Of a DNA stretch of 55,095 nt, positions 21,026-55,095 are shown one piece after another. Where the stretch lies: positions 1 to 55,095 of IMG/VR virus record IMGVR_UViG_3300009149_008416; one strand, written 5' to 3'. Numbering within the stretch: the stretch's first letter is position 1; each line of letters starts with the position of its first letter. Origin of the DNA: a virus. A model generated the notes under the pieces. That model worked only from the letters and a program-made list of their open reading frames with translations, was not told where the DNA came from and did not search any database. Both the position numbers and the translations under genes were made by a program.

Positions 21026-21359
21026 AGTAGAGTTAGCAAAAACTACTGCTGAAAAAGAGGCCGGGTTAATGTTTAGAAAAAGCATTAATCCAGACTCAGG
21101 TATGCTTTTTATTTTTGATAGTAAAAAGCCTCTTAGTTTTTGGGGCATGAATACATATATACCTCTTGACATAGCCTTCATAGAAGACGATAAAATTATT
21201 GATATAAAAAAAATAGTTCCTTTATCAACTAAACAGGTAAAATGTGAAATCCCATGTAATCGCGTAATTGAAGTTTCTTCTAACTTTTTTGAAAATAATG
21301 GAATTAAAACTGGGAGTTCTATAAGAGTGAATGGAGACGAAGTGACATTTTTGTTATAA
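20997..21359 (+). CDS. DUF192 family protein
   Basis: A 120-residue protein carrying the DUF192 signature: AGLMFRKSINPDSGMLFIFD, then FWGMNTYIPLDIAFIEDDKI and IVPLS. The family forms a small beta-barrel found in bacteria, archaea and some phages; its biochemical role is not established. Most bacterial members are exported, but no signal peptide is visible here, so it should be cytoplasmic or a virion component. The ATG overlaps the last 29 bases of the AAA+ gene in another frame and has only a weak ribosome binding site, so coupled translation is likely. Confidence 0.85.
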   Translation: MPSETFKKIKVELAKTTAEKEAGLMFRKSINPDSGMLFIFDSKKPLSFWGMNTYIPLDIAFIEDDKIIDIKKIVPLSTKQVKCEIPCNRVIEVSSNFFENNGIKTGSSIRVNGDEVTFLL

Positions 21360-21374
21360 ACAAAAAAAGGAAAA

Positions 21375-29000: not shown

Positions 29001-30495
29001 AGGACAGCCGATACCTCTTTCTAATAGGGCTGTTACTCATTTAAAACATATGCCAACACCAATTAGTCCATATGGTACATCTATTATCAGAAGACTATTT
29101 AAAACACTCGCATATAAAGATAGATTAATGACTGCAAACTGGATTGTTGCTGAAAGGCTTATTCTTCCTATTAGAATAATAAAAATAGGAAATGATGATC
29201 GTCCTGCTGGTGCCATTGATATTGCCAATGTGCAAGAACAAATTGCCGCAGTCATGAATGACCCCAACCTTACCCTCGTAACTCATCATGCTTTTACTTA
29301 TGAATTTGTAGGTGCTCAAGGACAAATTGTACAATTAGGGCCAGAATATGAGATGATAACTGGGGAAATTTTAGATGGTCTCATGCTTCCACAGGCCGTA
29401 TTAACATCAGAAATGCAGGGGTATCAAGGAGTTCAAATAGGCGCTGAAATACTCATTACCAGATTAGAAAACTGGAGAAATAAACTTAAAAATTATATAG
29501 AAGAAAGTATTTATCTTCCGGTAGCAAAAATGCAGGGATTTATTGATGAAGATGCAAGTAAAGATCTAGGCGATATTATCTATACATATCCAGAAATAAA
29601 ATGGAATGATCTTAAAATAAGAGACGACACACAAAGAAAACAACAATATTTAGGCTTACATGATGCTGGTATTATTTCTACACAAACACTTTCTGAAATA
29701 TTTGACTTAGATTATGATCAAGAAATAGAAAGAAAAAGAGAAGAAGTCAGTATTCAAATGAGTTTGGGTGGAGGAAATATGGGTGGTATGGGAGCAATGG
29801 GTGGAGGAATGGGCGGTATGCCTCCAATGGGAGGTGGTGGCCCTATGGGTGGTGGAGCGCCTCCGATGCCTGGAGGAGAAATGGGTGGTATGCCTCCGAT
29901 GCCTGGAGGAGAAATGGGCGGTATGACTGGCGCACCTGGCGGAGAAATGGGTGGGGGTATAGGAGGAGCATCTTCTGCTTCAAGAGGGCCAGGAACCGAA
30001 GGAAAAATTTTAAAAAGAAAAACTAAAAGTAGAATTGACAGAAAAAGTGAACAACAACAGCAACAACTTCCTGAAGTTATACAATTAACGTCAATAGAAA
30101 AAATATTATGGAGAAGATTATTTAGTGATCCATCTATTGAAATACCATTTCCAAAATATGCACAATTTAAAGTAGCCAATACACAGGGACAGTCATTTGT
30201 TTTAGATTTTGCTATACCTCATTTGAAAATAGGAATTGAAGCAGACGGCGCACTTCATCAACTGGATGAAAATAAAACCAGAGATGTTGATAGAGACCAA
30301 AGACTTGCAAGAAAAGGCTGGTGGATTCTAAGATTTAATGAGAGGGAGATCGAAAATAAAACAGAACAAGTTATACAAACAATAATGAAATATGTATCTA
30401 TGAGAATGCAGATGATAAAAAAAGAATCTTCATCAACAAAAGAGAAAGTAATTGGGACGATTACACAAACACTGGATTCTCTGACTGAGAGTTAA
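26032..30495 (+). CDS. Portal protein precursor with two inteins and a C-terminal endonuclease-like domain
   Basis: A 1487-residue precursor. Joining residues 1-72, an 18-residue piece (27469-27522) and the part from 28600 gives about 721 residues: WQIPSRREEIYQW-CRFFVENEPKVA...QFY-SEFPMQGFEL, typical of phage portals, followed by a CxxC-type insert (CKKCGGSG) and a helical core (ILDGLMLPQAVLTSEMQGYQ). The portal forms the dodecameric DNA gate at the head vertex. About 64 residues of Gly/Met/Pro (from residue 1247) link to a final domain (about 1355-1465) with DFAIPHLKIGIEADGALHQL and a later RDQRLARKGWWILRFNE. That pattern is DUF559/Vsr-like, a PD-(D/E)xK endonuclease fold. Both inteins and the fusion are unusual. 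Confidence 0.9.
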   Translation: MDKPIKFIQSNKTIGRNRQGRSGISKGVERQDIKTQKFASSNTVYTQPHFYSPLHTPQNWQIPSRREEIYQWQIIDGQLLTEQGTYVNIEDFEFIPEEIIEDAVTGGLLYNNIESQNVITGKGNLEFPTKFSVRECIEKECYKFSSTGQWRNFSVSEEHGIYVIDGDDYRKRKKIKSDKEYCLKLGKKLGWAKIETSFLDLVIRKEAKDVKLNDYLLIPVRKFVENAIILNTDLAWSIGLLQADGHLSHSDNGGYNTCYTLNKNEVVCEKIKTILEKFTKNKVQYYPHTNSKQSKRIILSEKEHYNKIAKYTIGKHSEKCFTKDIFDLDKESMMHVLGGYIDGDGSFNKAEEKIIINCYSENMSDQLQQMFLMCGVKCSLKRYPLYGDHYKTNSKWCYKIFISSSEIPKIIPYLRSDKMPEDFIPKTTRELRFFYEEDGNIFVASPIEKIEKFLYSGPGYDIEIPIDRSYCCSGFYVSNCRFFVENEPKVAAAIQFYCFDPDVPILMADGEQKSISSIKIGSNIRSHDGSINKVINKYVRHADEKMMKVSVAGINIRSLRMTPGHEVLTDVDGKICFKQIGTLKKGDYLLTPINYGNEESNFINNDLAWLLGAYAAEGCGIPYEHISKIGVSRQYYKGVYFTIHSDEKETFGSKIIEKLKKLYGDCNITSYELKDKNAFKICAYGQSIADDLIGLCPGNAKDGEKRFSPLVMNLNHKNLTAILGGFMSGDGCFAENNGFQGVGVSKKLCDQIANICDKLGLEYSYSKTRISLKNRQVIYNIRISRWACECLQEYTHKIPNKSCYEKNGTNIPYFKKGNYIYRRIKKIEEFDYSGDVYDLEIENKHSYVANRIAVHNSEFPMQGFELQCGDPKIKRYYEELNKRLSLNYWLPIISSEYYLLGDAFPFLTIQCKKCGGSGVYEDKECDHQGGTFSKLTVFNPDWIDVKENSLFNEPYIQLKPNEELRRIVTDRQPVEIYNRIPEHIRIMVMAGQPIPLSNRAVTHLKHMPTPISPYGTSIIRRLFKTLAYKDRLMTANWIVAERLILPIRIIKIGNDDRPAGAIDIANVQEQIAAVMNDPNLTLVTHHAFTYEFVGAQGQIVQLGPEYEMITGEILDGLMLPQAVLTSEMQGYQGVQIGAEILITRLENWRNKLKNYIEESIYLPVAKMQGFIDEDASKDLGDIIYTYPEIKWNDLKIRDDTQRKQQYLGLHDAGIISTQTLSEIFDLDYDQEIERKREEVSIQMSLGGGNMGGMGAMGGGMGGMPPMGGGGPMGGGAPPMPGGEMGGMPPMPGGEMGGMTGAPGGEMGGGIGGASSASRGPGTEGKILKRKTKSRIDRKSEQQQQQLPEVIQLTSIEKILWRRLFSDPSIEIPFPKYAQFKVANTQGQSFVLDFAIPHLKIGIEADGALHQLDENKTRDVDRDQRLARKGWWILRFNEREIENKTEQVIQTIMKYVSMRMQMIKKESSSTKEKVIGTITQTLDSLTES
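26248..27468 (+). other. Intein 1 in portal, non-canonical (Gln start), with LAGLIDADG endonuclease
   Basis: About 407 residues interrupt the portal. The first residue is inferred to be Gln (QIIDGQLLTEQG), the end is YVSN followed by Cys of the extein. Block B is SVSEEHGIYVID. LAGLIDADG-type motifs appear as SIGLLQADGHL and VLGGYIDGDGSF. Gln at position 1 and Ser in place of the penultimate His are rare, so splicing may be slow or follow a non-standard path. Boundaries come from extein continuity and need checking. Confidence 0.75.
27523..28599 (+). other. Intein 2 in portal, canonical Cys...HN/Ser, with LAGLIDADG endonuclease
   Basis: About 359 residues beginning CFDPDVPILMADGEQKSISS and ending RIAVHN before a Ser of the extein. 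Block B is MTPGHEVL. LAGLIDADG-type motifs appear as LLGAYAAEGCG and ILGGFMSGDGCF. All core splicing residues are present, so it should splice. It is only 18 extein residues downstream of intein 1. Confidence 0.92.
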
Positions 30496-40636: not shown

Positions 40637-41167
40637 ATGGCTTTAATTCCTCGTTATCACGTAGTAGCAGACAGTCTAGCAGTAGACGCTGATGCTGAAA
40701 TAATCATGGGTTCGTTTGTCAAGTTAAACACCGATGGTGAAGTAGTACAAGCAACCGGCGCAGCTTCAGAATATGCATTTGGCGTAGCTGGTGATACTAA
40801 AAGTGCAGATACTTCTGGTATGCCAAGCACAAATGATGCTGTTATGGGCGCATCCGGTACTTCCCAAGCTTTCGTTAATAGGGCCTCAGATGGTCTTACT
40901 GATGAAACTAAGGCTTCCGCAAAAATGACTGTTTATCACAGTGGCGGAAAATTTGCTACAGATCAATATGACACAGACGGCACATATGTCCCTGGCGCAG
41001 CTTTGTATGTTGGCGCATCTGGCAAACTCCAGACCTCAGATGCAGGTTCTGGGCAGATCGCTGCTCGTACAATAAGCGAAGGTGCATATCCTTCTGGCGT
41101 ACCAGGTGTTGATGTTGACGGCGACATTACCCTTGGAGACTATCTTACGTTTAAGATGGTTATTTAA
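40637..41167 (+). CDS. Putative capsid decoration or head-stabilising protein
   Basis: A 176-residue protein rich in Ala, Gly, Asp, Ser and Thr, with AAGGAG before the ATG. Its beta-pattern (ADAEIIMGSFVKLNTDGEVV, AFGVAGDTKSADTSG, MTVYHSGGKFATDQYDTDGT, AALYVGASGKLQTSD) matches small head proteins encoded just before the capsid gene in many phages (decoration or DUF2190-like). The gene is richer in GC and in C-ending codons than its neighbours, as is the capsid gene, which suits high expression. No catalytic motif is visible. The assignment rests on position, composition and strand pattern. Confidence 0.65.
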   Translation: MALIPRYHVVADSLAVDADAEIIMGSFVKLNTDGEVVQATGAASEYAFGVAGDTKSADTSGMPSTNDAVMGASGTSQAFVNRASDGLTDETKASAKMTVYHSGGKFATDQYDTDGTYVPGAALYVGASGKLQTSDAGSGQIAARTISEGAYPSGVPGVDVDGDITLGDYLTFKMVI

Positions 41168-41230
41168 TTATAGATATTTAATTGGAACTGTTATAGAATG
41201 GTTCTGATAAGAATAAAGGAGAAATAAAAA

Positions 41231-42100
41231 ATGGCTCTTACAAAAACAGGTCTAACAGACGAAGAAAAATAGCAAGTAGTTGCGCAGGCTCTAGAAACCG
41301 AAGAAGGCCGTATGGCCCTAGCTCAGGCGATGGTTGAACCAATTCGCAGAGCGCTTGAATATCAAGCTGTCGGAAGAAAGTGTCTTATGGTTGACGAACT
41401 TCCACAGGGTGCATTGGCAAGATACGAACGTGACGTTACCGCAAAGGCATACGTTCTGTCTCGTAGAGGCGCTGTACCAGATGCAATTACAGAAGGCGAA
41501 GAGGTACTTGTACCTACATTCGAAATCGCAACTAACCCTCAAATTCGTTTGAGTGAAATCAAAGCACGTAGATTTTATATCGTTGACCGTGCTCAAATCA
41601 AGGCTAAAGAAGCAATCCAAAAGGAAGAAGATAGCAATATCTTTACCGCCGCTTTTGCAGCCGTTCCAACCGCTCATAGCGTTCTCGCTTCAGGCGGTGC
41701 TCTGACAATTACTGCTCTTAACCAGGCTTTTGCTGCAATCGAAGAGCACGATCTTACTGTTGCCAAGATCATCATGCATGCACAGCGTTATGCAGATGTC
41801 CGTAACTTTGGTAAGAACGTCTTTGATGAAGCAACAACCAGAGAAGTATTGGTCTCAGGTCTGTTTGGGCATCTTTGGACTGCTGACATTCATGTTAGCT
41901 CAAGAATGCCTACGAACAAGGCTCTCTTGTTCGCTCCAGCAGACAACGTTGGCGCATTCCCAATTAGACAGGACATCACTGTTCTGCCTGCTGACGATCC
42001 TAAAAAGCTTCGTCTGGGTTGGGTTATATATGAAGAGGTCGGAATTGTAATTATTAACGATTATGCCTTGGCTGAAGTCGAAGTTGGTTCAAGCTCATAA
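41231..42100 (+). CDS. Major capsid protein (HK97-type), interrupted by in-frame TAG at codon 14
   Basis: The frame from ATG 41231 (after AAAGGAG) reads MALTKTGLTDEEK, then TAG (41270-41272), then QVVAQALETEEGRMALAQAM and onward to the TAA at 42100, 289 residues if the TAG is decoded. The body is typical of an HK97-fold capsid (LARYERDVTAKAYVLSRRGA, FEIATNPQIRLSEIKARRFY, VGIVIINDYALAEVEVG). Downstream of the TAG the frame is conserved-looking and GC-richer, so the protein is evidently used. A start at ATG 41312 with GAAGAAGG ahead would give 262 residues. The N-terminus of such capsid proteins is often cleaved, so either route could work. Position directly after protease and scaffold supports the call. 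Confidence 0.85.
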
Positions 42101-42143
42101 ATCTATAACTAACTAAGTATAAGCTAATAATAACAAATAACAG

Positions 42144-42186
42144 AAAAGACCGGGTAAGAAATTGCTCGGTCTTTTCTTTTTTGTAA
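42144..42186 (+). terminator. Terminator after the major capsid gene
   Basis: AAAAGACCG (42144-42152) pairs with CGGTCTTTT (42167-42175) around a 14-base loop, followed by C and a T-rich run. It lies 44 bases after the capsid stop and closes the long late operon. Confidence 0.85.
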
Positions 42187-42196
42187 AAAGGATATT

Positions 42197-42235
42197 TGTC
42201 AATCTGTATGTAGAATAACTCCACACAGATTGACA
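42197..42235 (+). promoter_or_regulatory. Hairpin abutting the ribosome binding site of a 38-residue ORF
   Basis: TGTCAATCTGT (42197-42207) and ACAGATTGACA (42225-42235) form a perfect 11-bp inverted repeat with a 17-base loop. The right arm ends immediately before GGAGAT, the ribosome binding site of the ORF at 42246. It could control translation, bind a repressor, or protect the RNA end. Confidence 0.6.
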
Positions 42236-42245
42236 GGAGATAAAT

Positions 42246-42362
42246 ATGAAAAATGCTTTAAAATCAATAACTGGTAGAAAAATGAGAAAAGATTCTTTTG
42301 AATTTAATCATGATTCGGATAAAAACGATAGATTAGAGCCTATGGTTGTTCTTCATAAATAA
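42246..42362 (+). CDS. Short hypothetical protein (38 aa)
   Basis: A 38-codon ORF (MKNALKSITGRKMRKDSFEF, then an acidic stretch and EPMVVLHK) with GGAGAT seven bases ahead of the ATG. It is too short to recognise. It sits alone between the capsid-gene terminator and a convergent gene, with a perfect hairpin upstream of its start. A 9-base inverted repeat (42267-42275 and 42362-42370) spans it, possibly by chance. The ribosome binding site and hairpin make it a credible small gene. Confidence 0.5.
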   Translation: MKNALKSITGRKMRKDSFEFNHDSDKNDRLEPMVVLHK

Positions 42363-42430
42363 CCAGTTATCATCCTGTTTTTTGTTAATAAATATTTAAG
42401 GGAGATTGAGGACAGTTATCGTAACAGCAC

Positions 42431-42814
42431 CTATGTTTTCTTTAATAACTCTTCAATGGTCGCTGTGGGTTCCATAACAATCTCTCCGTCTTTCTCTACT
42501 GGTCTGAAATCATTATGATCTTCGGGTGAGTAATTTTCTTTCTTTATTTGACATTCTAAAACTCTATCCATTTCTAAACTATGATCATAATTTCTAAACT
42601 GTGGGTGTATTTCTGACTTATTATTTAAACCACCGTCATTTATTATTGAAGAAATTATGTCACCGGATTTAGCCAATTGTTTTAAAGCTTTATTGTATTC
42701 AGCTTCCTGTATTTTAGCTATGGCAGCATTTCTTGCATCATTTTTAGTTGAATCAATATCAGTCTGCTCCAAAAAAGCTTTCATCATTGGGGAAATTGTT
42801 GTATTATTTTTCAT
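42431..42814 (-). CDS. Hypothetical protein (127 aa)
   Basis: A 127-residue charged protein, not recognised, on the minus strand. It starts MKNNTTISPMMKAFLEQTDI, is helical through about residue 55, and has an acidic C-terminal half. It ends in TAG and converges on the 38-residue ORF. The upstream 40-bp tandem hairpin repeats (42822-42951) lie immediately before its start, so they may control it. No canonical ribosome binding site is obvious. Confidence 0.6.
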   Translation of the reverse strand: MKNNTTISPMMKAFLEQTDIDSTKNDARNAAIAKIQEAEYNKALKQLAKSGDIISSIINDGGLNNKSEIHPQFRNYDHSLEMDRVLECQIKKENYSPEDHNDFRPVEKDGEIVMEPTATIEELLKKT

Positions 42815-42821
42815 AAATGTA

Positions 42822-42951
42822 GATCCTCAATATTATATATCGGTCTACACATAACTAGACCGATCCTCAATATTGTACATCAGTCTACACATAACTAGAC
42901 CGATCCGCAGTACTATATATATAATAGACCTGGTTCTATACATATAGTACT
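42822..42951. repeat. Three-unit 40-bp tandem repeat with nested hairpins
   Basis: Period is exactly 40 bases from 42822, 42862 and 42902. Units 1 and 2 share GATCCTCAATATT and CTACACATAACTAGACC. In unit 1, CGGTCTA/TAGACCG forms a perfect 7-bp stem with an 8-base loop; unit 2 has one G-to-A change (CAGTCTA). Unit 3 has diverged to a longer stem, AGTACTATAT (42909-42918) with ATATAGTACT (42942-42951), plus an inner ATAGA/TCTAT helix. It may be operator sites or structured RNA in the leader of the 42431 gene. Confidence 0.8.
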
Positions 42952-43011
42952 ATTAACACTGTACTTTATTAATATTTAAAAGAAAAAAGAAAAATAAAAG
43001 AAAAAAGAAAG

Positions 43012-43443
43012 TTAAAATTGCATTTTACCTGACTTCATACCCTTTTTTATCCCGTATTCTTCTTTTATCTTCTTTTTCTCTTCAGAAGTCATTTTTTCTC
43101 CTTCTGCTTTCATCTTTTGAAAAATATCCTGGGATTTAGCCATCTCTTGTTCTGCTTTCCAATCAGATAAACCTTTGTTTTCTTCCTGTCCTCTTTCTTT
43201 TCTGAAACTATCACGGTAATCTTTATTACCTTTCATTCTTTTCACAAGATCTTGATGACGACCAGAATACCCATGTGTACTAAATTTTTCAGTTCCTCCT
43301 ATTACGTGAAAATTTATAGAACTAAAAAGTTTTTTTATATTAGAACTACCACAGAGGTTACAATTATTTTGTTTTTCATTCATTCCATGTTGCACTTCAA
43401 ATATAGAGTCACATTCTTTGCATTTATAGTCATAGATTGGCAT
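43012..43443 (-). CDS. FmdB-type zinc-ribbon protein
   Basis: A 143-residue protein starting at ATG 43443, which follows AAAGGAGAG; an in-frame ATG 69 bases upstream has no such site. The N-terminus is a textbook FmdB-family zinc ribbon: MPIYDYKCKECDSIFEVQHG with C8/C11, then C28/C31, followed by a short beta segment (NIKKLFSSINFHVIGG). In bacteria this family is named for a putative regulator of formamidase genes and is widespread with unclear role. The C-terminal 90 residues are highly charged and helical. It lies divergent from the SpoVR gene. Confidence 0.8.
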   Translation of the reverse strand: MPIYDYKCKECDSIFEVQHGMNEKQNNCNLCGSSNIKKLFSSINFHVIGGTEKFSTHGYSGRHQDLVKRMKGNKDYRDSFRKERGQEENKGLSDWKAEQEMAKSQDIFQKMKAEGEKMTSEEKKKIKEEYGIKKGMKSGKMQF

Positions 43444-43489
43444 TTCACTCTCCTTTGTTTTTACACTTTTTAAAATCATATTCAAAAAT

Positions 43490-43519
43490 TTGTTATCAAT
43501 CGATCTTTTCATGTATAAT
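43490..43519 (+). promoter_or_regulatory. Sigma-70-like promoter ahead of spoVR
   Basis: TTGTTA (43490-43495) and TATAAT (43514-43519) are 18 bases apart, giving a perfect -10 and a four-of-six -35. The promoter points toward the SpoVR-PrkA cluster, whose first start is 109 bases downstream. AT-richness makes chance matches common. Confidence 0.5.
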
Positions 43520-43627
43520 GATGCAACGATACGATCTAAGATAACTCACCTATTTAATTCATATCTTTTTAAGTATTTTCCTTTTTTTTTGCATCGTACA
43601 TTAAATATATGAAATTGGAGTTATTAT

Positions 43628-45259
43628 ATGATACGTTCTAAAAAAATAATTGAATTAAAAAATATTGAAGAAGCAGTTCTTAAAAGTGCTTCCAATTACG
43701 GAAGGATTATTCCGGAAATTAGATTTTTTATGCTTGATGCCAACGAATTTATATCTCTTCTTGAAAAAAATGTTTATCCAACAAGTCCAATGAATGTATG
43801 GGAAGGAAAAAATGTTATTAAAAGACGTTTTATGAGTGATATTGGTAGAGAAACAGGACTTTATTATGAAGTCGTTCAATGTGGTAATCCTTCATATGCT
43901 TATCTTAATGAAAATAATTCATTTACTACTCAGGCATCTGTGATGTCCCATGTTATAGGTCATTGTGAATTTTCTGAATTAAATATTATGAAGAATTCTA
44001 ATCTATACAGAACAGAGTATGTTATGTATTTAACCAAAAAAATAGAAAATTCAGTTAAAAATATGGGTTTCAATAATTACACAAAATATTGGAATGCATG
44101 TGAGTCTATTATTCCGCTTGTTAATCCAAATTCTCAATATAATTTAGATAATTCTATAGAAACTGAATTTTCTGAAGTTAAACAATCATCTCTTGAAGAA
44201 GAAAAGCAAGAAAGACAAATGTTCAAGGGATATTCTTCTACATTAGATTCTATATTAAGTCCTCTTAATTCAAATGAAATATATAAAGAAGATCAAGATA
44301 ATAAAAATAAAAGAGAAACAATAAGCCGACATGGATATAAATTGAAGGCTCCTTGTCAGGATGTTCTTGGTTTTCTTAAACGTTTTGCTCCTGCCAGTGA
44401 AAATGAAACAAATATTATGGAATATATGTATTTTGTGGCTAGACATCATGATTTTGTAGTAAAAACACAAATTATGAATGAGGGTTGGGCAATGTATTGG
44501 GAAAAGAAAATTATGATGGATCTCTTTTCTGAAAAAATAGTTCCTGATGTTATTGATTATTGCAGAATTTTTTCTGCTGTTTGTAAACCTAGACCATTTT
44601 TTGTTAGAAATCCATATCATGTTGGATATTATATGTGGAATCATATTGAAGATCTATATAGAAAAGGAAAAATTTCTCTTAATTTTTCTGAAGAAAAAGA
44701 AAGACTAAAAAAAGATGAATGGAATAATGGCGGAACAGATAACCCAATAGAAAAAATGGATCATTTAGTTAAAACTATTACTGATTATGAATTTTTAAGA
44801 AGATTTTTAGATAAGGAGCTTATAGATAAATTATATTTGAATAGAATAACTACAGATGAAGCTTTTACTTATGGATTTCTTTCACCAGAAAATCATGACA
44901 AAATAGTTAAAACAGACAAAAAATATGTATATCTTTCTCAAGATTGGGTTAAGAAACAAATGCTTAATTTTTTTGTAGATTTTTATAGACCTTTAGTATA
45001 TATTATTGATACTAATTTTTTAGATGGAGGTTTACTTCTTTTTCATAGACATAAAGGAAGAGATTTAAAAGAAAGTTGGATTCCTCCGACTTTAGGAAAT
45101 ATTAATACAATTTGGAAAGCACCAGTACATTTAATTACTGGCAAATATATATATAAAGTTTCTGGAAAGGAAGCTATAAGAAAAGAAATAGCACCAGTTG
45201 ATTTTAATGTTATTAAAGAGAGAATGTTTGAAAATAAAAAACCATTCAAGGCGGAATAA
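43628..45259 (+). CDS. spoVR: SpoVR family protein
   Basis: A 543-residue protein, close to the size of bacterial SpoVR/YcgB proteins. The family signature is clear: YYEVVQCGNPSYAYLNENNS, MSHVIGHCEFSELN, VARHHDFVVKTQIMNEGWAM (about residue 268), PRPFFVRNPYHVGYYMWNHI and IDTNFLDGGLLLFHRHKGRD. In Bacillus subtilis SpoVR affects spore cortex formation; in Enterobacteria ycgB is a stress gene of the RpoS regulon next in function to prkA (yeaG) and yeaH. The molecular activity is unknown. TTGGAG precedes the ATG. The PrkA-like gene follows two bases after the stop, so the pairing seen in bacteria is retained here. Confidence 0.92.
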   Translation: MIRSKKIIELKNIEEAVLKSASNYGRIIPEIRFFMLDANEFISLLEKNVYPTSPMNVWEGKNVIKRRFMSDIGRETGLYYEVVQCGNPSYAYLNENNSFTTQASVMSHVIGHCEFSELNIMKNSNLYRTEYVMYLTKKIENSVKNMGFNNYTKYWNACESIIPLVNPNSQYNLDNSIETEFSEVKQSSLEEEKQERQMFKGYSSTLDSILSPLNSNEIYKEDQDNKNKRETISRHGYKLKAPCQDVLGFLKRFAPASENETNIMEYMYFVARHHDFVVKTQIMNEGWAMYWEKKIMMDLFSEKIVPDVIDYCRIFSAVCKPRPFFVRNPYHVGYYMWNHIEDLYRKGKISLNFSEEKERLKKDEWNNGGTDNPIEKMDHLVKTITDYEFLRRFLDKELIDKLYLNRITTDEAFTYGFLSPENHDKIVKTDKKYVYLSQDWVKKQMLNFFVDFYRPLVYIIDTNFLDGGLLLFHRHKGRDLKESWIPPTLGNINTIWKAPVHLITGKYIYKVSGKEAIRKEIAPVDFNVIKERMFENKKPFKAE

Positions 45260-45260
45260 A

Positions 45261-47747
45261 ATGAATTTTGATTATAAAAAGTTTTTAGTAAATCCAAAAT
45301 CTGATTCTGAGACTTTTTCAGAATTTATGAAAAATATGGTTGAGAATCCGAAAGTTTATCTTTATACTTCTCCATCTCTTGTTTCAGATGCTATTAGAAG
45401 TTTCGGTTATAAAATAGTTGTTAGAAGTGGAGAGCCTGTTATTAATTATGATATATTTTCTGATCCCTTTTCAGATGGAATTAATGCTATTTATGGACAA
45501 GAGTTTTGTATAGATAAAATTCTTGATATTGTAGACTCAGCAGATCAAGAATCTGTTCCTAGACGAGGCATAATTCTTGTTGGACCTCCATCAAGTGGAA
45601 AAACAAATATTATTGACATGATTACGAGGGGTCTTGAAGAATATACAAGGAAGGAAAATGTTAAAGTATGTTCATTTTCTATAATTTTTGAAGATGATGG
45701 AAAGAAATTTATTTATCGTTCACCATTTATGCATCATCCTATTTTATTAATTCCTATAACATCTGAGAATAAAGGAAAGATTATTTATCCAAGAAAAGAG
45801 TTTTTAACTGAGTTAGAAAATAATAATAATGAATTTTCAATTCCAAATTATTATAAAAATGCTACTTTAGATAAAGTAACATTAAATATATTAGATCATT
45901 TAATATTATCTTATGGTATGACATATTCAGAAATATTAGAAAATTATATATTTGTAGATAGAACTAATTTTTCTATAGCTCAGGGAAGAGGAATTGCTAA
46001 TATTGATGATATGAAAAAACTTATAGCACAAACTAAGTCAATTCGAATTGGTTCTTCTTTTAAAGAAATTTTAGATAAATTTATTCCTGGCATGGATATT
46101 TATACATATGAAGGATCATTAGTTTCTTCTAACAGGGGGATTCTTCATATTCATGATGCGTTTAATAAGGAAAAAACCGAAGATGCATACCGCCCGCTTC
46201 TTATGCTTTTAGGAAGTGGAAAAATATCTGTTGAAGCAACTCAAACTTTTTTAGATACAACTGTTTTTATAACTACAAATTTGGAAGAAATGTCAAATCT
46301 TGAAGAAGAATTAACATCAAAGAAATTATTGGATAGAGTAGAAAAAGTACCTGTTAATTATCTTATTGATGCTAATTCTGAAATGGAAATATTAAATAGA
46401 GATATGGTTGTAATTAAAGATAAATATGATATCGATCCGAATTTAATAAGAGTTGCATCTTATTATTCAGTTATGACTAGACTATTTCCCACAAAAAAAA
46501 CAGATAGTGATTTGCCAAAAAATTGGACTCAGGAGAAAAAAGATTTTTATAAAATACTTCCTCCTGAAAAGAAACTTCTTATTTATTCATCGCAATGTCG
46601 TGATCCAATAAAAACGATCAATTCTTTACCCCCATTACATCAATTTAAAAATGAATGTTCAAAATTAGGCATAGATTTGAATAATCCGGAATCTTATAAA
46701 GATAAAGTTCATATTAATAGTGATGCTATCCCTTTAGAAGAGACGGGATTATTTTCAAATGAACAAATTAAGATGGTTGATGATGAATTTATGAGAATTT
46801 TAATTAGAGAAAATAAGATGTCTGAAGGAAAGTATGGAATGAGTGTTCGGCAACTTCAAAATGTTATGCGAGACACAATCGCATCATCTGACGGAAGAAA
46901 AGTAACTGTTCCTCAATTTATAAAACAATTGACAAAAATTGTAATAGAAGGTTCAACTGTTCATTATTGGTTGAATGATAAATATATTTCTCAAATGACA
47001 AATAATCTAACTATTGAGGAAAGAATGATAGGTGATATTATATTTGATGAAACAGATGGTATGTATGGTGATTATGCAGAAATGATAGATCTTGTGACTG
47101 CATTGTATAATGAAATTATTAAGAAAGAGATAATAATAGCATCAGTAAACAGAGATCCTAAAAAGATAGAGGTAGATTTAAGACGCTATTTGCAATATGT
47201 TTTGTTATATAGGGCATCTAATAATAAATCATTTTCTAAAGTTTTAATAGATAAATTTTCATTTATAGACCCTATAAAAGGAAGTAGAGTTGATTCATAT
47301 GATTCAAAATTTATGCAATCAATTGAATCAATATTATATTCGAAAAATATTGCTTCTGATGAACAGTGTGAAGATTTTAGAAATTCTATGGCTGAAAAGT
47401 TTTTTAAATTAAAAGATTCTGGAGAATTAAAAATAGGAGAAAATAATTCAATTATTAATTCATCAAATGATGGATTAAAACTCTGTTTCGCACAAGAATA
47501 TTCATCATTATTATCGCATAACCGCGTTATGGATGATATTAATATAAATCTTCTTGAAGAAGCTTTTTATTATAAATATAACTCTCCTTCTAAATATAAT
47601 AAATGTACAACTAGAATCCGTGAAATGGTAGATATGATTATAAATAATATGATTAAAAATAATGGATATTCTAAAGATATGGCTTTAGAAACGGTAATTT
47701 ACGCATTAACAGAACAAGTTATTAATTTCGCTGAAATTTTAAGTTAA
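45261..47747 (+). CDS. PrkA-like AAA+ protein, first copy
   Basis: An 828-residue protein starting at ATG 45261 (AAGGCGGA ahead). The N-terminal half is a PrkA-type AAA domain: FSDGINAIYGQEFCIDKILD, Walker A ILVGPPSSGKT near residue 108, SSNRGILHIHDAF near residue 290 (the PrkA NxRGxLEF-like motif) and TVFITTNLEEM near 334. PrkA (about 640 residues in bacteria) was described as a serine kinase and later as an AAA+ protease-like protein, so its activity is debated. The C-terminal region is longer than usual and not recognised. It is one of two tandem copies after spoVR. Confidence 0.85.
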   Translation: MNFDYKKFLVNPKSDSETFSEFMKNMVENPKVYLYTSPSLVSDAIRSFGYKIVVRSGEPVINYDIFSDPFSDGINAIYGQEFCIDKILDIVDSADQESVPRRGIILVGPPSSGKTNIIDMITRGLEEYTRKENVKVCSFSIIFEDDGKKFIYRSPFMHHPILLIPITSENKGKIIYPRKEFLTELENNNNEFSIPNYYKNATLDKVTLNILDHLILSYGMTYSEILENYIFVDRTNFSIAQGRGIANIDDMKKLIAQTKSIRIGSSFKEILDKFIPGMDIYTYEGSLVSSNRGILHIHDAFNKEKTEDAYRPLLMLLGSGKISVEATQTFLDTTVFITTNLEEMSNLEEELTSKKLLDRVEKVPVNYLIDANSEMEILNRDMVVIKDKYDIDPNLIRVASYYSVMTRLFPTKKTDSDLPKNWTQEKKDFYKILPPEKKLLIYSSQCRDPIKTINSLPPLHQFKNECSKLGIDLNNPESYKDKVHINSDAIPLEETGLFSNEQIKMVDDEFMRILIRENKMSEGKYGMSVRQLQNVMRDTIASSDGRKVTVPQFIKQLTKIVIEGSTVHYWLNDKYISQMTNNLTIEERMIGDIIFDETDGMYGDYAEMIDLVTALYNEIIKKEIIIASVNRDPKKIEVDLRRYLQYVLLYRASNNKSFSKVLIDKFSFIDPIKGSRVDSYDSKFMQSIESILYSKNIASDEQCEDFRNSMAEKFFKLKDSGELKIGENNSIINSSNDGLKLCFAQEYSSLLSHNRVMDDININLLEEAFYYKYNSPSKYNKCTTRIREMVDMIINNMIKNNGYSKDMALETVIYALTEQVINFAEILS

Positions 47748-47763
47748 TAGGAGAGTAAAAATT

Positions 47764-49986
47764 ATGCATGAAAAATTAAAAAGTATTTTTGGGGACAAGG
47801 ATGCTCATTACACTGATAATAAAGAAGTGATTTCATTTGATGAATATATTGATGTTGTTATTGAAAAACCATGGGTGAGCAGAAATATGTTTCAACTTTT
47901 GCACGACATGATTGTTTCAAGTGGTGTAGTTCATAAACTTACTCCTGGTAAGCCACCAACTCATAAATATAACTTTTTTGAAGATTCTAAATATGTTGGA
48001 GATTTTGTTGTTTTTGGTCAACAAAAAGCAAAAGAGAATCTTGTTGAAAGAGTTTATAACGCTTCTAGAAAAAATGAAGCTTCAAAAAGATTATGGATTT
48101 TACTTGGACCTCCTGGTTCAGCAAAAAGTAGATCAATGGAAGCAATTAAGACTGGTCTTAATAGATATTCTAAAATGGAAGAAGGAAAAACATATACTTT
48201 GCTTCTTCCAACCATAAATCCAAAACTTAAAAGTAGATCTATGTTTGAAGAGAATGGAATTTATTATATACAATCACCGTGCTTTGAAAGACCATTGCAA
48301 ATTATTTCAATAGATAAAAGAACAGAATTTCTTAATGCCCTTAATAGTTCTGTTGATCAATCATCTATGGAATTATTTCTTGAAACACATAAACATTATG
48401 ATAATGGATTTTCAGTAGATATTGATGGAATTATGTCTCCTGCATCTCAATTTATTGTAGAAGAATTTATGAAAGATAAAAATTTGTCTTTTTCTGAAAT
48501 GCTTGGATATCTTAAGGCTAAGAGAATGATATTTGATGCTAAAACAAAAACCGGCATTGGGTCTTATACTCCAAGAGATGAAAAAAGTCAGGAAGCAGGT
48601 TCTTTAGTTGGAAATATTGATTATACTTTACTTCCACAATTTGGTAGTGAATCTCATCCTTTGGTCCATGATTATAAAGGTGAACTTTGTGTTGGTGCTA
48701 ATGGATTTGTTGAAATTCATGAAATATTAAAGCTTTCAGATAGATTTTTATATGAGTTGCTTTTTGCAACACATGATAGATTTTTTAAGCCTGAAGGTCA
48801 GCCACCTATTCCATTTAATGGTGTTATTATAGGTCATACTAATTTTCATGAATATAATATGTTCCAACAAAATGAGGCTTTTGAGGCTCTGCGAAAGAGA
48901 ACTATGTTTATTGAAATGCCATTTTCAACAAATTTTAGAGAAGAAGAAAAAATATATTCATTCACATATTCTAATGAAGCAAGAAGTTGGAATAAAAATC
49001 AAAAATATACTGCTCATGTAGCTCCTCATAGTTTAGAATTGCTTAGTTTGGCTGCTGTAATGTCTAGATTATATGATTCAAAGAAAACTAAAGATTTACA
49101 GTTAATTCAAAAAGCATTAATTTATGCTGGTAGAGTTGATACTGGAGTAGATAATAATATGGCAAATAGTATTATTGATGAATTTAAGTATACAAAACCA
49201 TCTGAAGGGACATTTGGTCTTGATCCAAGATTTATACAAAATACTTTTGAGACAACTGAACACTTTCAGATAAATGAGTTTCTTGCTAATATTGATAAGC
49301 TTAATAAAGAAGGTGGAGATCAGACAATGTTGGATTCTATATCGTTAAGAAATCCATGTGTTACTCCATTGGATATTTTACTTAAAATGGAAAATGATAT
49401 TAAAGATAATTATGCTCTAAATAAAAATTTGCTTCAGAAATATACTGAAAATGTTATTCCTCAAGCAAAAAGATGGATTTATTCTCAAATAGCTAATGAT
49501 GTATATAGTTCAATTCTAAGAGATGATACTATAATTGAGAATACTTGGAAAAAATATACTGACCATGTTCGTGCTTTTGCTCATAATACAACAGTCAAAC
49601 ATGAAATTACTCAAAAAGATGTTAAGCCAGATGAAAAATTTATGAGATCAATTGAAGAGTATATTGGTGTGCCAGACAGGGAAGTATTTAGAAAAGAACT
49701 TAGTGATGCGATTTCAAGTGTTGGACATTTAGTATTGCTTAAGGATGAGCCATCTTATCAAGCAGCTATTAAAAAATATGTATTTGAAAATGAGTTCAAG
49801 TCAGGAGAAAATATGAAGCTTTTGGGTTGGATTAAGAGCGGTTTTTCGTCTGCCGACGCTAACTCAAAGGAACAAGAACAATTGAATGATACTATTAAGT
49901 ATTTAATGGATAACATGGGCTACTGTGGCAAATGTGCTCACCAGGCGCTTGTGATTACAGCTAACTCTTCTTCAATTGTTGAGTAA
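47764..49986 (+). CDS. PrkA-like AAA+ protein, second copy
   Basis: A 740-residue protein, TAGGAGAG before its ATG. PrkA features are stronger than in the first copy: VVFGQQKAKENLVERV, Walker A LLGPPGSAKS near residue 115, GANGFVEIHEILKL near 310, and FNGVIIGHTNFHEYNMFQQN near 356, matching the PrkA FDGxxxxHSNxxEW motif. PFSTNFREEEKIYSF fits the segment that follows in PrkA. A C-terminal region of about 250 residues ends with a CGKCAHQA Cys pair. The two copies differ in length and sequence, suggesting different partners rather than a recent duplicate. Confidence 0.88.
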   Translation: MHEKLKSIFGDKDAHYTDNKEVISFDEYIDVVIEKPWVSRNMFQLLHDMIVSSGVVHKLTPGKPPTHKYNFFEDSKYVGDFVVFGQQKAKENLVERVYNASRKNEASKRLWILLGPPGSAKSRSMEAIKTGLNRYSKMEEGKTYTLLLPTINPKLKSRSMFEENGIYYIQSPCFERPLQIISIDKRTEFLNALNSSVDQSSMELFLETHKHYDNGFSVDIDGIMSPASQFIVEEFMKDKNLSFSEMLGYLKAKRMIFDAKTKTGIGSYTPRDEKSQEAGSLVGNIDYTLLPQFGSESHPLVHDYKGELCVGANGFVEIHEILKLSDRFLYELLFATHDRFFKPEGQPPIPFNGVIIGHTNFHEYNMFQQNEAFEALRKRTMFIEMPFSTNFREEEKIYSFTYSNEARSWNKNQKYTAHVAPHSLELLSLAAVMSRLYDSKKTKDLQLIQKALIYAGRVDTGVDNNMANSIIDEFKYTKPSEGTFGLDPRFIQNTFETTEHFQINEFLANIDKLNKEGGDQTMLDSISLRNPCVTPLDILLKMENDIKDNYALNKNLLQKYTENVIPQAKRWIYSQIANDVYSSILRDDTIIENTWKKYTDHVRAFAHNTTVKHEITQKDVKPDEKFMRSIEEYIGVPDREVFRKELSDAISSVGHLVLLKDEPSYQAAIKKYVFENEFKSGENMKLLGWIKSGFSSADANSKEQEQLNDTIKYLMDNMGYCGKCAHQALVITANSSSIVE

Positions 49987-49998
49987 GGATAGTGAATA

Positions 49999-52590
49999 AT
50001 GAAATTAATTAATAAAACAGAAACAACTTTAATATTCAATGATATTAATTTAGTACTGGTATATGATAAAGACGGAAAAGGTGTTGATGTGGAAGATTAT
50101 GATATTAAAAATTCTCCAACACTAAAACACTATATAGATAGAGGTCTCGTGGAAGTTAATAAACCAGATGAAGATAATGTTGTATATCGATCAATAAAAA
50201 ATAGACAAGAAGTTGTAGATAGGCAATTAAAAGAGCCTACTAAGATTAAGAAAAACAGTGAGCAATCAGAAAGTTCTAACTCAGACATTATTTTAGGTGG
50301 AGAAACGAAAGTGATATCATCTAGGGTTTATAGGGTTCCCGAGACCTCTTCTATTGACAAATTTAGAAATACAGGAAAGATGGATATATCTTATTGTGGC
50401 CCATGTTTTTCTGGTGATACAATAGTTATTATCACAGATGGTGTTAAATTTATTAAAGATGTTGAAATAAATGATCGCGTTCTAACTCATAATGGGAATT
50501 GGAAAAGTGTAACAGGAAAGCACATAAAGTTTTATAATTCATCCATGTTATCTATAAAGCCTAATTTATTTAATGGAATTAGTATAAATTGTACTCCAAA
50601 CCATAGATTTTATATCAAAAACATAGAAGAAATAAAATGGAAAAAAGCAAGATCAATATCTTCTGAAGATTCTTTTATTATTCCTCCAATTTCATTTGAG
50701 AGTGAGAAAAAATTTATTCTACTTTCAGACTATGTTAAAATAGATTTTGATGAATTGCAAGATGGTTTTTGTTCTGTAATTAAACTTACCGATGGTTTTC
50801 TTAATATTATATGGGAATATATTAACTCTGGAGAAATAATAGGTGATTCAGAAGTTTCTTTTAAGATTAATAAATATTTCTTTTTTGAGTTTATGTCATT
50901 AATGAGAGAAATTTTTGGTGTTAGTTCGGTTAAGTATGTAGAGTATGAAAAATATTTTAAATATACTTGTCATTCTTTTTCGTTAGTTAAATTTTTTGAA
51001 TATTTTTGCGGTTCAGAATTTAAGAAGATTCCATCATTTATATTTAAGAAAAATATATCAAAAAGATTTTTGAAGTTAATACTTTTTGAAAAAGAAGCAA
51101 ATAAAAAAGGAACAATTGTTATATATTCCAGACATCCATTGATTGCCTGGGGCATTAGACTTTTACTTCTTGAATCATCTATTGTATCATCAATTCAGTA
51201 TATCCCATCAAGAAAAAATTATTGTGTATCATTTTCTTTAAAAAAATTCTTTAAGACATTAAAAGATAATAATTTGGTTGATGAATCATTTAAATGGGAG
51301 GATACAACGGTTAAAAATAGACCGGCAACTTATGATTTTACTGATAATGGAATATATGTGCCATTTTATGATATGAAACCAGGAGAATATTCTGAATATG
51401 TTTATAATCTTGATGTTGAAGATGACAATTCATATACTGCTGGTTTTTGTTCTGTTCATAATTGTTATGATGCAGGAGGCTATGCTAAAATGAACAGAAA
51501 TTATATGTTCGGATTATCTAAAAAAGATGATGTTAATTTAAAACTTGATTTACCAAAAGATTTATCAATAAGAAAACAAGTTGAAGAGGAATTAGTTAAT
51601 AAGCTTGATGAATTAAGAAAAAACAAAGTTGGTGAAAATGTGGTAAAAATTTATGGAAGTACGGCAACAGGACCGATGACGGGCAGATATAATATTTTGT
51701 ATACAATGATGGAAACTGAAAAAGTACATCCTCAATATATTGAAAAATGTAACATGGCTAATGAATTATGGTTGCCTACCGATTGGTGCATAGAAAAATT
51801 TAAAGAAAGCGGTGCTCGTTCAAAGATTTATAAGATGCCAATAGGAGTTGATTTTGAGAATTATGTCGAAGGTAAACCTCCAGTAACGTTTGGTGGCAAA
51901 GAGAATGGCTTTATATTCTTAACGGTATTTGGTTGGAGTCTTCGTAAGGGTTATGATATACTTTTACAGTCTTATTATGAGGAATTTTCTAAAAATGATG
52001 ATGTAACTCTTGTTATATGTAGTAGATTTGCTGGCAAGACTGATAAAACATCAAAACAAGTAATTAAAGATAATATTAAGACAATAGAACAATCTGTTAA
52101 AAAATTAAATAAACCAAAACCTCCACTCTTAATAGCTGATGTTATACCAGAGAAGATGATGGGAAGTTTATATAATTCTGCTCATGCATACATATGCATT
52201 TCTAGGGGTGAGGGATTTGGCATGCCTTTTTGCGAGGCCAGTTTATGTGGTTTACCTGTTATAGCTTCTAATTATTCTGGACAGAAAGATTTTCTTAATT
52301 ATGATAATTCATTTTTAGTGGAACCGGAAGGATGTCAAGTAAATCCAGGGGCAGAATGGGTTTCATATTATTATACTGATATGCCAATGGCTTATTTTGG
52401 TAGAGATTCTATTGATCAAACAAGGGCACATATGAGATATGTATATGAAAATTATGCGCTTGCAAAGGATAGAAATAGGAAATTACAGAAGTTTATAAAA
52501 GAAAACTATGATTGGAATAAATGTGTTAACAGGATGTACGATAGATTAAAAATAATCTATTCAGAAATTAAACATAGAGGTGAAAAATGA
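49999..52590 (+). CDS. GT4 glycosyltransferase precursor with an intein
   Basis: An 863-residue precursor; splicing out 50404-51462 leaves about 510 residues. Residues 1-130 form a non-GT N-terminal region of unknown role. The GT-B enzyme starts at SYCGP-CYDAGGYAKMNRNY, the N-terminal donor/acceptor loop. It continues with VFGWSLRKGYDILLQSYYEE and the EGFGMPFCEASLCGLPVIAS motif, whose E-x7-E is typical of GT4 retaining transferases. The sugar and acceptor are unknown; phage GTs modify DNA bases, virion proteins or host glycans. It is followed by a gene coupled through an ATGA overlap. Confidence 0.88.
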   Translation: MKLINKTETTLIFNDINLVLVYDKDGKGVDVEDYDIKNSPTLKHYIDRGLVEVNKPDEDNVVYRSIKNRQEVVDRQLKEPTKIKKNSEQSESSNSDIILGGETKVISSRVYRVPETSSIDKFRNTGKMDISYCGPCFSGDTIVIITDGVKFIKDVEINDRVLTHNGNWKSVTGKHIKFYNSSMLSIKPNLFNGISINCTPNHRFYIKNIEEIKWKKARSISSEDSFIIPPISFESEKKFILLSDYVKIDFDELQDGFCSVIKLTDGFLNIIWEYINSGEIIGDSEVSFKINKYFFFEFMSLMREIFGVSSVKYVEYEKYFKYTCHSFSLVKFFEYFCGSEFKKIPSFIFKKNISKRFLKLILFEKEANKKGTIVIYSRHPLIAWGIRLLLLESSIVSSIQYIPSRKNYCVSFSLKKFFKTLKDNNLVDESFKWEDTTVKNRPATYDFTDNGIYVPFYDMKPGEYSEYVYNLDVEDDNSYTAGFCSVHNCYDAGGYAKMNRNYMFGLSKKDDVNLKLDLPKDLSIRKQVEEELVNKLDELRKNKVGENVVKIYGSTATGPMTGRYNILYTMMETEKVHPQYIEKCNMANELWLPTDWCIEKFKESGARSKIYKMPIGVDFENYVEGKPPVTFGGKENGFIFLTVFGWSLRKGYDILLQSYYEEFSKNDDVTLVICSRFAGKTDKTSKQVIKDNIKTIEQSVKKLNKPKPPLLIADVIPEKMMGSLYNSAHAYICISRGEGFGMPFCEASLCGLPVIASNYSGQKDFLNYDNSFLVEPEGCQVNPGAEWVSYYYTDMPMAYFGRDSIDQTRAHMRYVYENYALAKDRNRKLQKFIKENYDWNKCVNRMYDRLKIIYSEIKHRGEK
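50404..51462 (+). other. Intein in glycosyltransferase, with degenerate endonuclease region
   Basis: About 353 residues beginning CFSGDTIVIITDGVKFIKDV and ending FCSVHN before a Cys extein residue. Block B is NCTPNHRFYI. No clear LAGLIDADG pair remains in the middle; the region looks like a decayed endonuclease. Splicing residues are intact. Confidence 0.92.
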
Positions 52591-53369
52591 AGCCTTTCGT
52601 TCTTTTAGATATTGATACAATGGAATTAATTTTAGTAATAAAAAATACCGTTAAAAGAATAAAAGTATCAGAATTGGATGGTGCTGAAGATTTTATAGAC
52701 GAATTTTATAGACATTTTAAAGAAATGAATTTTGTCCCAAAATATAACATAATGAACAGAAAAGAATTTGTCGATCTTGTGGCCGGTTTGAAAAATATGA
52801 AAAAAGCAGAAATAGTAGAAGAAGATTTGCCTCTTATAGAACATAAAATTATTGAGAGAAATCAGATCTTAGAAGAAGAAAATACTAATGAAAATGCAAC
52901 ATTAGTAAGATCGAATACTGACAGAAAAATATCTATAGATGATTTACAGATGCGTTTTGACGAACCTTATGATTATTATGACTTGTCTGTTTTTGATAAA
53001 GAACGAATAGATAAATCGAACCAGCTTAAATTTTTTCTTGATAGAAAAATGTTAGTTATGACAACTATGGATGAAATTACAAAAATTAGAGGAAAGCTTA
53101 TTGCTAAAAAAGAGCAGGAGAAAAGGGAAAGACAGGAAAATCTTATCGTTAATCGAAAAGAGGTTATGGGTGAAGAGGAAGGAATATTGATAAGTTCAGA
53201 TGATTATAGAAATGCTGATACAAATATGTCTGGAGGAATGAATTCAGGAAATGTATCAAGTGAAGAAATGTCAGAAGCAAAGGTTGCTATTGCAGACATG
53301 TTTTCATCTGGTGTTGCGGTTGATGGCGATGAATCAAAGAGTATTGATGAACTTTTAAGGAGGGCATAA
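52587..53369 (+). CDS. Hypothetical protein
   Basis: A 260-residue acidic protein, starting at an ATGA overlap with the glycosyltransferase gene, which suggests coupled translation. Residues 1-75 look folded (LLDIDTMELILVIKNTVKRI). Residues 80-240 are charged and helical with an RQEN-rich coiled-coil-like stretch near 185-195. Not recognised. Confidence 0.65.
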   Translation: MKPFVLLDIDTMELILVIKNTVKRIKVSELDGAEDFIDEFYRHFKEMNFVPKYNIMNRKEFVDLVAGLKNMKKAEIVEEDLPLIEHKIIERNQILEEENTNENATLVRSNTDRKISIDDLQMRFDEPYDYYDLSVFDKERIDKSNQLKFFLDRKMLVMTTMDEITKIRGKLIAKKEQEKRERQENLIVNRKEVMGEEEGILISSDDYRNADTNMSGGMNSGNVSSEEMSEAKVAIADMFSSGVAVDGDESKSIDELLRRA

Positions 53370-53640
53370 TGAATGTGTCATTTATAACGATTCGATTAAA
53401 TTTTTTGGGATCTATGCTATAACTCAAAGAGATATAGACAACGTTCAAAAACAACTTTCACAGTTAAATAATGATACTGACCTTATTATTGCAACTAAAA
53501 ATCATTTTGATTTTTTTCCTATAAAAAAAGGAAACTTATATAATAACATCGAATATATTGAAGGAATTAACGAACAAACATGCGAACATAGTGCAAGAGA
53601 TGTGTTTGATTATAACGATTTGATAAATTATTTTGAATAA
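53369..53640 (+). pseudogene. Small gene with apparent one-base frameshift just after its start
   Basis: AAGGAGGGC lies ahead of ATG 53369 (overlapping the previous TAA), but that frame stops after 17 codons. The reading frame from 53371 is open for 89 codons (YNDSIKFFGIYAITQRDIDN and onward to YNDLINYFE) and ends at TAA 53638-53640. One extra base after ATGAA would join start and body, giving about 90 residues beginning MKCVIYND or MNCVIYND. This looks like a recent deletion in a short A-run, a sequencing error or a programmed shift. The product is not recognised. Confidence 0.6.
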
Positions 53641-53654
53641 AAGGGAGAATAAAA

Positions 53655-53954
53655 ATGAATGATAGAGAAATTGATGAAAAAGATGCTATAACTGGTACCG
53701 TTTACCAAGAAACTCTCTCTGCTATGAAGAGAATTTTAGATTTAGGAGAATTTAAAATTGGTGCATCAAATTCTAGAGATTTTGCATTTTTTAAGAGAGA
53801 AGTTATGGACAGTATTTATAGTTCATTAAAAAATATTTTTAAAGAGTTAGAGACAGATGGTTTGGTTCAAGAGTGCCCATATTGCAGCGCTGATTTAAGA
53901 AAAGGATGGAAACCTTGTGTTTGTAGGGGTTCTGGTTATGTCTCAGCTCAATAA
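53655..53954 (+). CDS. Small protein with C-terminal Cys-rich (zinc-ribbon-like) end
   Basis: A 99-residue protein with GGGAGA ahead of the ATG. Residues 1-70 are helical and charged. Near the C-terminus, QECPYCSADLRKGWKPCVC gives CxxC followed by CxC, a compact zinc site, ending GSGYVSAQ. Not recognised beyond this; binding to nucleic acid or protein is possible. Confidence 0.65.
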   Translation: MNDREIDEKDAITGTVYQETLSAMKRILDLGEFKIGASNSRDFAFFKREVMDSIYSSLKNIFKELETDGLVQECPYCSADLRKGWKPCVCRGSGYVSAQ

Positions 53955-53982
53955 TTTATAACGTCATAAAGGATATAATAAA

Positions 53983-55095
53983 ATGGAAAAAGACGACAAT
54001 ATTCTTAAGATAGCCAGTGATTTAGATTCCAAAAAAATGTATTCTTTTGCGAATCGTCTTACTAATATTTTTGATGAGATGTCTGTGGTAGATACTAAGG
54101 AAAAATATAAGATTGTTGATAAAAAGTATAGAACATTTTTATCTGACCTTAAAGAAGCTGACTCAGATATGCATGATAGACTTACTAAAACATCATTTAG
54201 ATGGTGGGATCGTATGGGGGATTGGTTTACAGGGAAGACAAAAGGAGAAGATTATAGACGAGACAGAATTCAAGATAGAGTTACAAAAGATACACGTGGT
54301 CCAGAAAATAAACCTACTACTTCTATAGGAACTTATAAAAGCATCATACAAAAATTACAAGATAATCGAGTTGAAGATGCTGTAAAAGCATTTTCTCAGA
54401 CTATTGGAAAATTTGCAGATAGTATGAAAAATGCAGAAAGTCAAGGACAGAGAGCAATTGGCTTTGCTAAATCTATTCAAACTAATATGGCAAAAATAGC
54501 AAGTAATTATAAAAAAGCTAGACAACCAGATGCCGCTCTTTTAGTTGAAGATATGACTAAACCAGTAAGTCAACAATTAAATGCTGTTTTGGAACAACTT
54601 AACGCTCCGAGATTTGATGGTACATATTCACAGGGCATGAAAAATGCTTCCACTATTTTCCCTGAAACTTATAATAAAGTTAAAGAAGATGCCGCTAAAG
54701 GATATATACCAGAAGATGAAACTTTAGATTGGGGAGATTATTTAGATTCTGATGGCGATGGTATTCCTGACTCTCAGGAACCAGATGCGGTTCCGCCAAC
54801 AGGTGGAGAACCCGTAGATGCGGGAGAAACTGGAACTGTTACAAGAATGACTCCAGAAGAAACGGCTGAAGTCAACGCTGATCAAGGCGTTATTAATGCT
54901 CCAAAACAGTTGGGGACTGGTGGTGCGCTAATTACAACACCAAAACAAGAGGCTCAAAAACTTCTTGAGCAAGGAAGGCAGACGCAAAATACTGCTACCG
55001 TTACTCCATATTTACAAAGATTAGTTGATGATGCTTATAATAATAATAATCAAGAATCTTTAGATAAGGCTATGGAAATTATGTATCATATGAAA
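53983..55095 (+). CDS. Hypothetical protein with calcium-binding type motif (runs off window)
   Basis: An open frame of 371 codons from ATG 53983 (AAAGGATAT upstream) continues past the right edge, so the C-terminus is missing. Residues 1-250 are charged and helical, with coiled-coil-like stretches around 120-190. Near residue 254 the segment LDSDGDGIPDSQEPD is a clear thrombospondin-type-3 or EF-hand-like Ca-binding loop. A Pro/Gly/Thr-rich linker follows. The N-terminal region contains FRWWDRMGDWFTGK near residue 67. No enzyme family is seen. Position and repeats suit a virion-associated protein. Confidence 0.65.
   Translation, partial: MEKDDNILKIASDLDSKKMYSFANRLTNIFDEMSVVDTKEKYKIVDKKYRTFLSDLKEADSDMHDRLTKTSFRWWDRMGDWFTGKTKGEDYRRDRIQDRVTKDTRGPENKPTTSIGTYKSIIQKLQDNRVEDAVKAFSQTIGKFADSMKNAESQGQRAIGFAKSIQTNMAKIASNYKKARQPDAALLVEDMTKPVSQQLNAVLEQLNAPRFDGTYSQGMKNASTIFPETYNKVKEDAAKGYIPEDETLDWGDYLDSDGDGIPDSQEPDAVPPTGGEPVDAGETGTVTRMTPEETAEVNADQGVINAPKQLGTGGALITTPKQEAQKLLEQGRQTQNTATVTPYLQRLVDDAYNNNNQESLDKAMEIMYHMK

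Follow-up and report, generated by a model that had tools for sequence, protein, structure and literature searches.

The DNA considered here is an IMG/VR virus contig of 55,095 bases (IMGVR_UViG_3300009149_008416, referred to below as the window), and its subject is a major capsid gene that carries an in-frame TAG at codon 14 (Table 1). This stop was pointed out in a first-pass annotation made from the letters alone, and it is indeed present in the record; the accompanying claim that the frame is otherwise intact also holds, in that 275 sense codons follow the TAG up to a TAA at 42098-42100, with homology to other capsid genes on both sides. The protein matches the major head protein phrog_2522 (E 2.8e-63) and phage G gp27 (PDB 6wkk; E 1.1e-116), and a sequence match over the whole domain places it in the phage G gp27-type major capsid family. 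A Shine-Dalgarno motif with its ATG, an early in-frame TAG and an intact conserved domain behind it are all present in this one gene.

Table 1. The capsid gene of the window, its signals and its immediate surroundings
Feature	Position	Strand	Basis
Gene for the major capsid protein (phage G gp27 type), interrupted in frame by TAG at codon 14	41231..42100	+	frame and homology
Shine-Dalgarno motif AAAGGAG ahead of ATG 41231	41215..41221	+	similar arrangement in most relatives
In-frame TAG, codon 14, a Glu/Gln site in relatives	41270..41272	+	sequence and alignment
First possible in-frame start past the TAG: ATG, residue 28, private to the window	41312..41314	+	alignment
Gene preceding the capsid gene, order kept in relatives	40637..41167	+	gene-order comparison
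Terminator-like hairpin and T run past the capsid gene, 16 pairs	42142..42177	+	consensus scan only

Two trivial origins of the stop were ruled out. In 80 database sequences the homology to this frame runs across the TAG, which a mistaken upstream start does not account for; and relatives are of equal length around the site, so that the TAG is a substitution and not an indel. The comparison drew on the best 80 of 102 capsid relatives found, 77 of which have a readable anchor motif, one that requires Val or Thr at residue 28. The codon at the TAG site in these 77 is GAA in 54, GAG in 16, CAA in three, and CAG, GAT, GCA and AAA in one each; the residue is thus Glu in 70 and Gln in only 4. Phage G gp27, which is alike in capsid family and in its N-terminal arm (N-arm), also has Glu at this place. 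The ancestral residue would most likely have been Glu, and the CAG-to-TAG change at a Gln codon put forward in the first-pass annotation is accordingly the less likely origin.

Beyond the stop the gene has kept its character. The conserved N-arm can still be recognized in residues 15-27, and the segment past the TAG has therefore not decayed; residues 18-27, mostly invariant or nearly so throughout the family, are retained in the window. The 6wkk chain has 280 residues and the match to it begins at chain residue 3 (the gp27 coding sequence is 849 bases long), so the phage G capsid chain probably keeps the arm rather than having it removed. An AlphaFold2 model of the window protein has a mean pLDDT (predicted local distance difference test) of 56, and its predicted helices at residues 10-20 and 24-45 do no more than suggest an ordered N-arm. 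No ATG, GTG or TTG occurs in codons 15-27. Of the 80 relatives, 79 have Val or Thr at residue 28 (the 77 anchored ones plus L051 and L053, both with Thr; L058 is without that end), which leaves the ATG at 41312 as a feature of the window alone. In an alignment with 75 relatives, from which the five interrupted capsid loci were left out, 11 of 289 window positions are private, the stop included, and Met28 is the sole Met among the 10 private sense residues.

In L051, L053, L077, L081 and probably L058, an insert of about 1.1 kb splits the capsid gene close to its 5' end; it carries a LAGLIDADG-like or other open reading frame (ORF) and looks like an intron, and Rfam gave no match on the interrupted loci.

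Phages that have reassigned a stop are well described. In those that read TAG as Gln (code 15; crAss-like and Lak phages and some jumbo phages), an amber suppressor tRNA reads TAG and viral hallmark genes can be affected (PMC9523058, PMC10607447, PMC13037316). Their genomes carry TAG within many ORFs and code more densely when it is read under code 15, whereas the window has one TAG in one gene and TAG is still a stop. Genome-wide recoding was therefore ruled out: the window shows neither TAG inside many genes nor better coding under TAG as Gln, TAG terminates 7 of 47 window ORFs, and no other conserved window gene is extended through its middle when TAG is read as Gln. A scan of the window and seven relative records (G001, G010, G016, G034, G036, G014 and part of G009) gave the same picture, TAG behaving as a working stop with an unremarkable distance to the next one. 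Early stops past a start with a Shine-Dalgarno motif numbered 15 TAG, 15 TAA and 8 TGA in these eight records (G036 contributed none under the filter), and homology across an early TAG was found only for the window capsid gene; other TAG-bridging ORFs in the relatives were antisense or weak and were set aside. Elsewhere in the window, at 20997-21875, two ORFs in one frame are split by a TAA with a new ATG 15 nucleotides on; the frame is continuous in some relatives, and the split looks like a natural gene fission.

The window's relatives are rich in tRNA genes, which occur in 12 of 16 long records (up to 72 matches). Clear tRNAs with the amber-reading CTA anticodon were identified by ARAGORN in 6 of 78 relative records (G001, G002, G010, G016, G034 and G036); the anticodon-to-T-arm pattern that was run on 78 of the 80 records can miss tRNAs. 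A further CTA tRNA in G011, adjoining a tRNA-Thr, is poorly paired and doubtful. In the closest group only the records of G001 and G002 (capsid identity 76%) exceed 200 kb; the two share one identical CTA tRNA and are probably one lineage. The best matches of the suppressor tRNAs among other phage tRNAs are mixed as to amino acid, and the G010 tRNA may resemble tRNA-Gln. An amber tRNA just beyond the window end, as in G001, found no support: the G001 tRNA lies 14 kb after the capsid gene, and past that gene only a glycosyltransferase is common to the two.

Several oddities were seen at tRNA genes. In both G001 and G010 the amber tRNA is directly followed by a short ORF with two in-frame TAGs (L138, about 4600-4830, minus strand; L121, 18448-18640); the two ORFs share GFT-TAG and GPP, and a similar HIIHNR-type gene follows in both. 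Each short ORF may be a leader or a decayed tRNA, or may be due to chance. A tRNA with a possible four-base anticodon (aggt) adjoins tRNA-Thr in G012 (L123, 13452-13533).

What might the amber tRNAs of standard-code phages decode? Following the CTA tRNA of G034, G036 and G016, or close to it, lies a gene that resembles peptidyl-tRNA hydrolase 2. It is called Pth2-like here because its PF01981 scores fall under the curated cut-off (E 2-4e-4; 21.8 and 21.1 bits against the Pfam cut-off of 23, for the two tested). These genes begin ATG-ACT-TAG or ATG-GGT-TTT-ACG-TAG, or have TAG at codon 8. A wider search assembled 58 Pth2-like loci (among them L252-L258, L270-L307 and L310-L322), of which 33 are from viral contigs, 19 from GenBank phages (of 40 matching records) and 6 from the records of capsid relatives, where two more matches repeat counted loci. 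Although the first query read TAG as Gln, the search patterns lay in the domain or needed a Gln codon, and so introduced no bias towards TAG. A stop stands ahead of the domain in most loci, and it is TAG in 44, TGA in one and TAA in none; the 44 form 33 groups at 90% identity and include L292, although a TAA cuts its domain later. TAG occurs only inside the domain in L258 and L315, and the remaining 11 loci (L271, L273, L278, L281, L288, L289, L294, L296, L299, L307 and L316) are free of in-frame stops, some being fused to another N-terminus.

Among the early-TAG loci, a loose Shine-Dalgarno-like motif precedes the ATG in 34 of 42, and RaK2 and RCIP0023 (L301, L319) have no ATG ahead of the TAG. 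Between TAG and domain there is no ATG, GTG or TTG in 33 of the 44; in the other 11 there is one, and a start past the TAG is possible there. A CTA tRNA lies in the locus or record of 33 of the 44. None was found for seven (L270, L274, L291, RaK2, L310, L313 and L314), and in L277, L319, L321 and L322 there was no match within a short locus. The TGA case is G039 (L312), which begins ATG-AAG-TGA and has a tRNA with a TCA anticodon that begins 357 nucleotides before the domain; this single case is the change that would be expected if the tRNA decodes the stop. A second TAG is found at about one aligned place inside the domain in L310, L311, L313, L314 and L318. Finally, the TAG is present in the cultured phages CBB, GAP32, BF, XbC2, ME3, Arash and Cane17, and this speaks against its being an assembly error. 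Judging from these sequences, individual genes of large phages appear to carry stop codons that serve as gated sense codons, and this Pth2-like early-stop module is probably a more important finding than the capsid TAG.

Deposited annotations start such genes past the stop or omit them (CBB, GAP32, BF, Arash); the TAG-bearing CBB_406, for instance, is annotated as hypothetical with a start downstream of the TAG. The ORFs named peptidyl-tRNA hydrolases in the published accounts of RaK2 (ORF188) and CBB (CBB_392) are others than the Pth2-like gene (PMC3622015, PMC5259590). The family phrog_34073 has 77 positions and reaches no further than the C-terminal part of the Pth2-like protein, an extent that would be expected if gene callers start past the stop.

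Literature searching, to which subscription papers were out of reach, turned up no description of a stop-containing phage Pth2 gene. The accessible text of PMC7824862 and PMC8570332 has nothing on stops (the latter cites a T=52 capsid), and that of PMC13037316 assesses jumbo phage recoding by coding density with peptidyl-tRNA unmentioned. A close precedent is XacN1, with two CUA suppressor tRNAs whose target genes its authors were unable to identify (PMC5852040). More generally, such tRNAs in standard-code phages are not known to have clear targets. Several of the phages compared here are like XacN1 in having CTA tRNAs under a standard code, and unlike it in that a likely target class is at hand, namely the Pth2-like gene with an early in-frame TAG that is found in relatives and in isolates; XacN1 itself has the Pth2-like domain as a TAG-free fusion to another N-terminus. 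The comparison thus points to a target whose in-frame stop matches the anticodon of a phage tRNA, and one that is testable in cultured phages.

A stop used in this way has a counterpart in cellular genes. The prfB gene, for release factor 2, contains an in-frame UGA and is autoregulated by recoding through frameshifting, with no suppressor tRNA. In both cases a gene of translation has a stop close to its start, which ties expression to the decoding machinery; no homology is claimed.

For the capsid gene, the reading that we favor, with a probability of roughly 0.4, is that the TAG is suppressed by a phage tRNA encoded outside the 55-kb fragment. A true base change at a Glu codon would have given TAG, and the full-length capsid protein would be made when a phage-borne amber suppressor tRNA reads UAG. 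Elsewhere TAG would stay a stop, readthrough being in competition with release factor 1. The amount of capsid protein would be tied to the level of the suppressor tRNA and so delayed or capped, a translational gate like that proposed for the Pth2-like gene of many large phages. The presence of such a tRNA in this phage, the decoding of the capsid TAG and a regulatory effect are all inferred. The anatomy of the gene (Shine-Dalgarno motif, ATG, 12 codons, TAG, intact essential domain) fits the gated pattern, by analogy. Decoding, one of the options named by the first-pass annotation, gains support from the amber tRNAs and the stop-containing Pth2-like genes of relatives, and none from the window itself. 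If the capsid TAG is confirmed, the same device would reach the most abundant virion protein. A broader version, in which large phages rich in tRNAs have several stop-gated genes, a phage suppressor tRNA unlocking the Pth2-like gene with its conserved early stop (TAG with a CTA tRNA, TGA with a TCA tRNA) and, here, the major capsid gene, so that virion assembly waits for the tRNA to build up, is rather speculative.

A good deal weighs against suppression of the capsid TAG. No tRNA was found in the window by ARAGORN, by Rfam at gathering thresholds or in a lax Rfam scan of 42100-55095, nor does the window have a Pth2-like gene. The stop is not conserved, being present in 0 of 77 relatives and absent even from those with amber tRNAs, and the codons flanking it are unlike the contexts of the Pth2-like TAGs. 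There is no excess of early TAGs in the eight records scanned, and suppressor-bearing relatives do not, on this sampling, appear to put TAG in structural genes generally. A CTA tRNA also accompanies 6 of the 11 stop-free Pth2-like loci (L271, L278, L281, L294, L296 and L299), so the tie between stop and tRNA is not exclusive. Moreover, gating the most abundant protein looks costly.

How, then, do the other explanations fare? The first-pass annotation had named the right set (decoding, an internal start at 41312, or an error), and its interpretation is partly supported. Close behind suppression comes a sequencing or assembly error, in which one wrong base turned a Glu or Gln codon of an ordinary gene into TAG. 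A single substitution at one site, shared by none of the 77 relatives, is what such an error would look like; nowhere else in the window is an early TAG flanked by homology on both sides, and the record is a metagenomic contig from IMG/VR. On the other hand, no other clearly broken window gene was noticed, in what was not a systematic check, and none of the 77 readable relatives, which come from similar sources, has a stop there. We regard an error as somewhat less likely than suppression.

The two remaining explanations are weaker. Reinitiation at the ATG at 41312, about 40 nucleotides past the TAG, would give up the N-terminal 27 residues. This ATG is the first possible start past the stop, and that the only private Met of ten private sense residues should fall there by coincidence has, by rough reckoning, a chance of a few per cent. 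Such a start would, however, remove a strongly conserved N-arm whose residues 18-27 the window has kept, and which the phage G capsid chain appears to retain; the ATG is not conserved, no good Shine-Dalgarno motif precedes it, and RNA structure around the TAG is nothing special (z -0.05). We consider an internal start improbable, and about equally so a real allele that is dead or conditional, whether a nonsense variant in the population, a gene backed by a second intact capsid copy, or one rescued by a host amber suppressor. The fragment is only 55 kb long, and extra capsid genes do occur in the group, G001 having a second, short or partial capsid-like ORF with the N-arm motif (193672-193917; L269, 1363-1827). 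Yet the remaining frame is intact and conserved, and the assembled consensus is TAG, which would make it the major allele. The weights given to these four readings are a matter of judgement.

A few neighbors complete the description of the window. The phage G gene at the place matching the one that precedes the capsid gene is annotated as capsid decoration, a likeness by position alone. ORFs with intein splicing and homing-endonuclease domains lie at 26032-30495 and 49999-52590, the second inside a glycosyltransferase. Finally, SpoVR and PrkA genes adjoin in this phage at 43628-47747.
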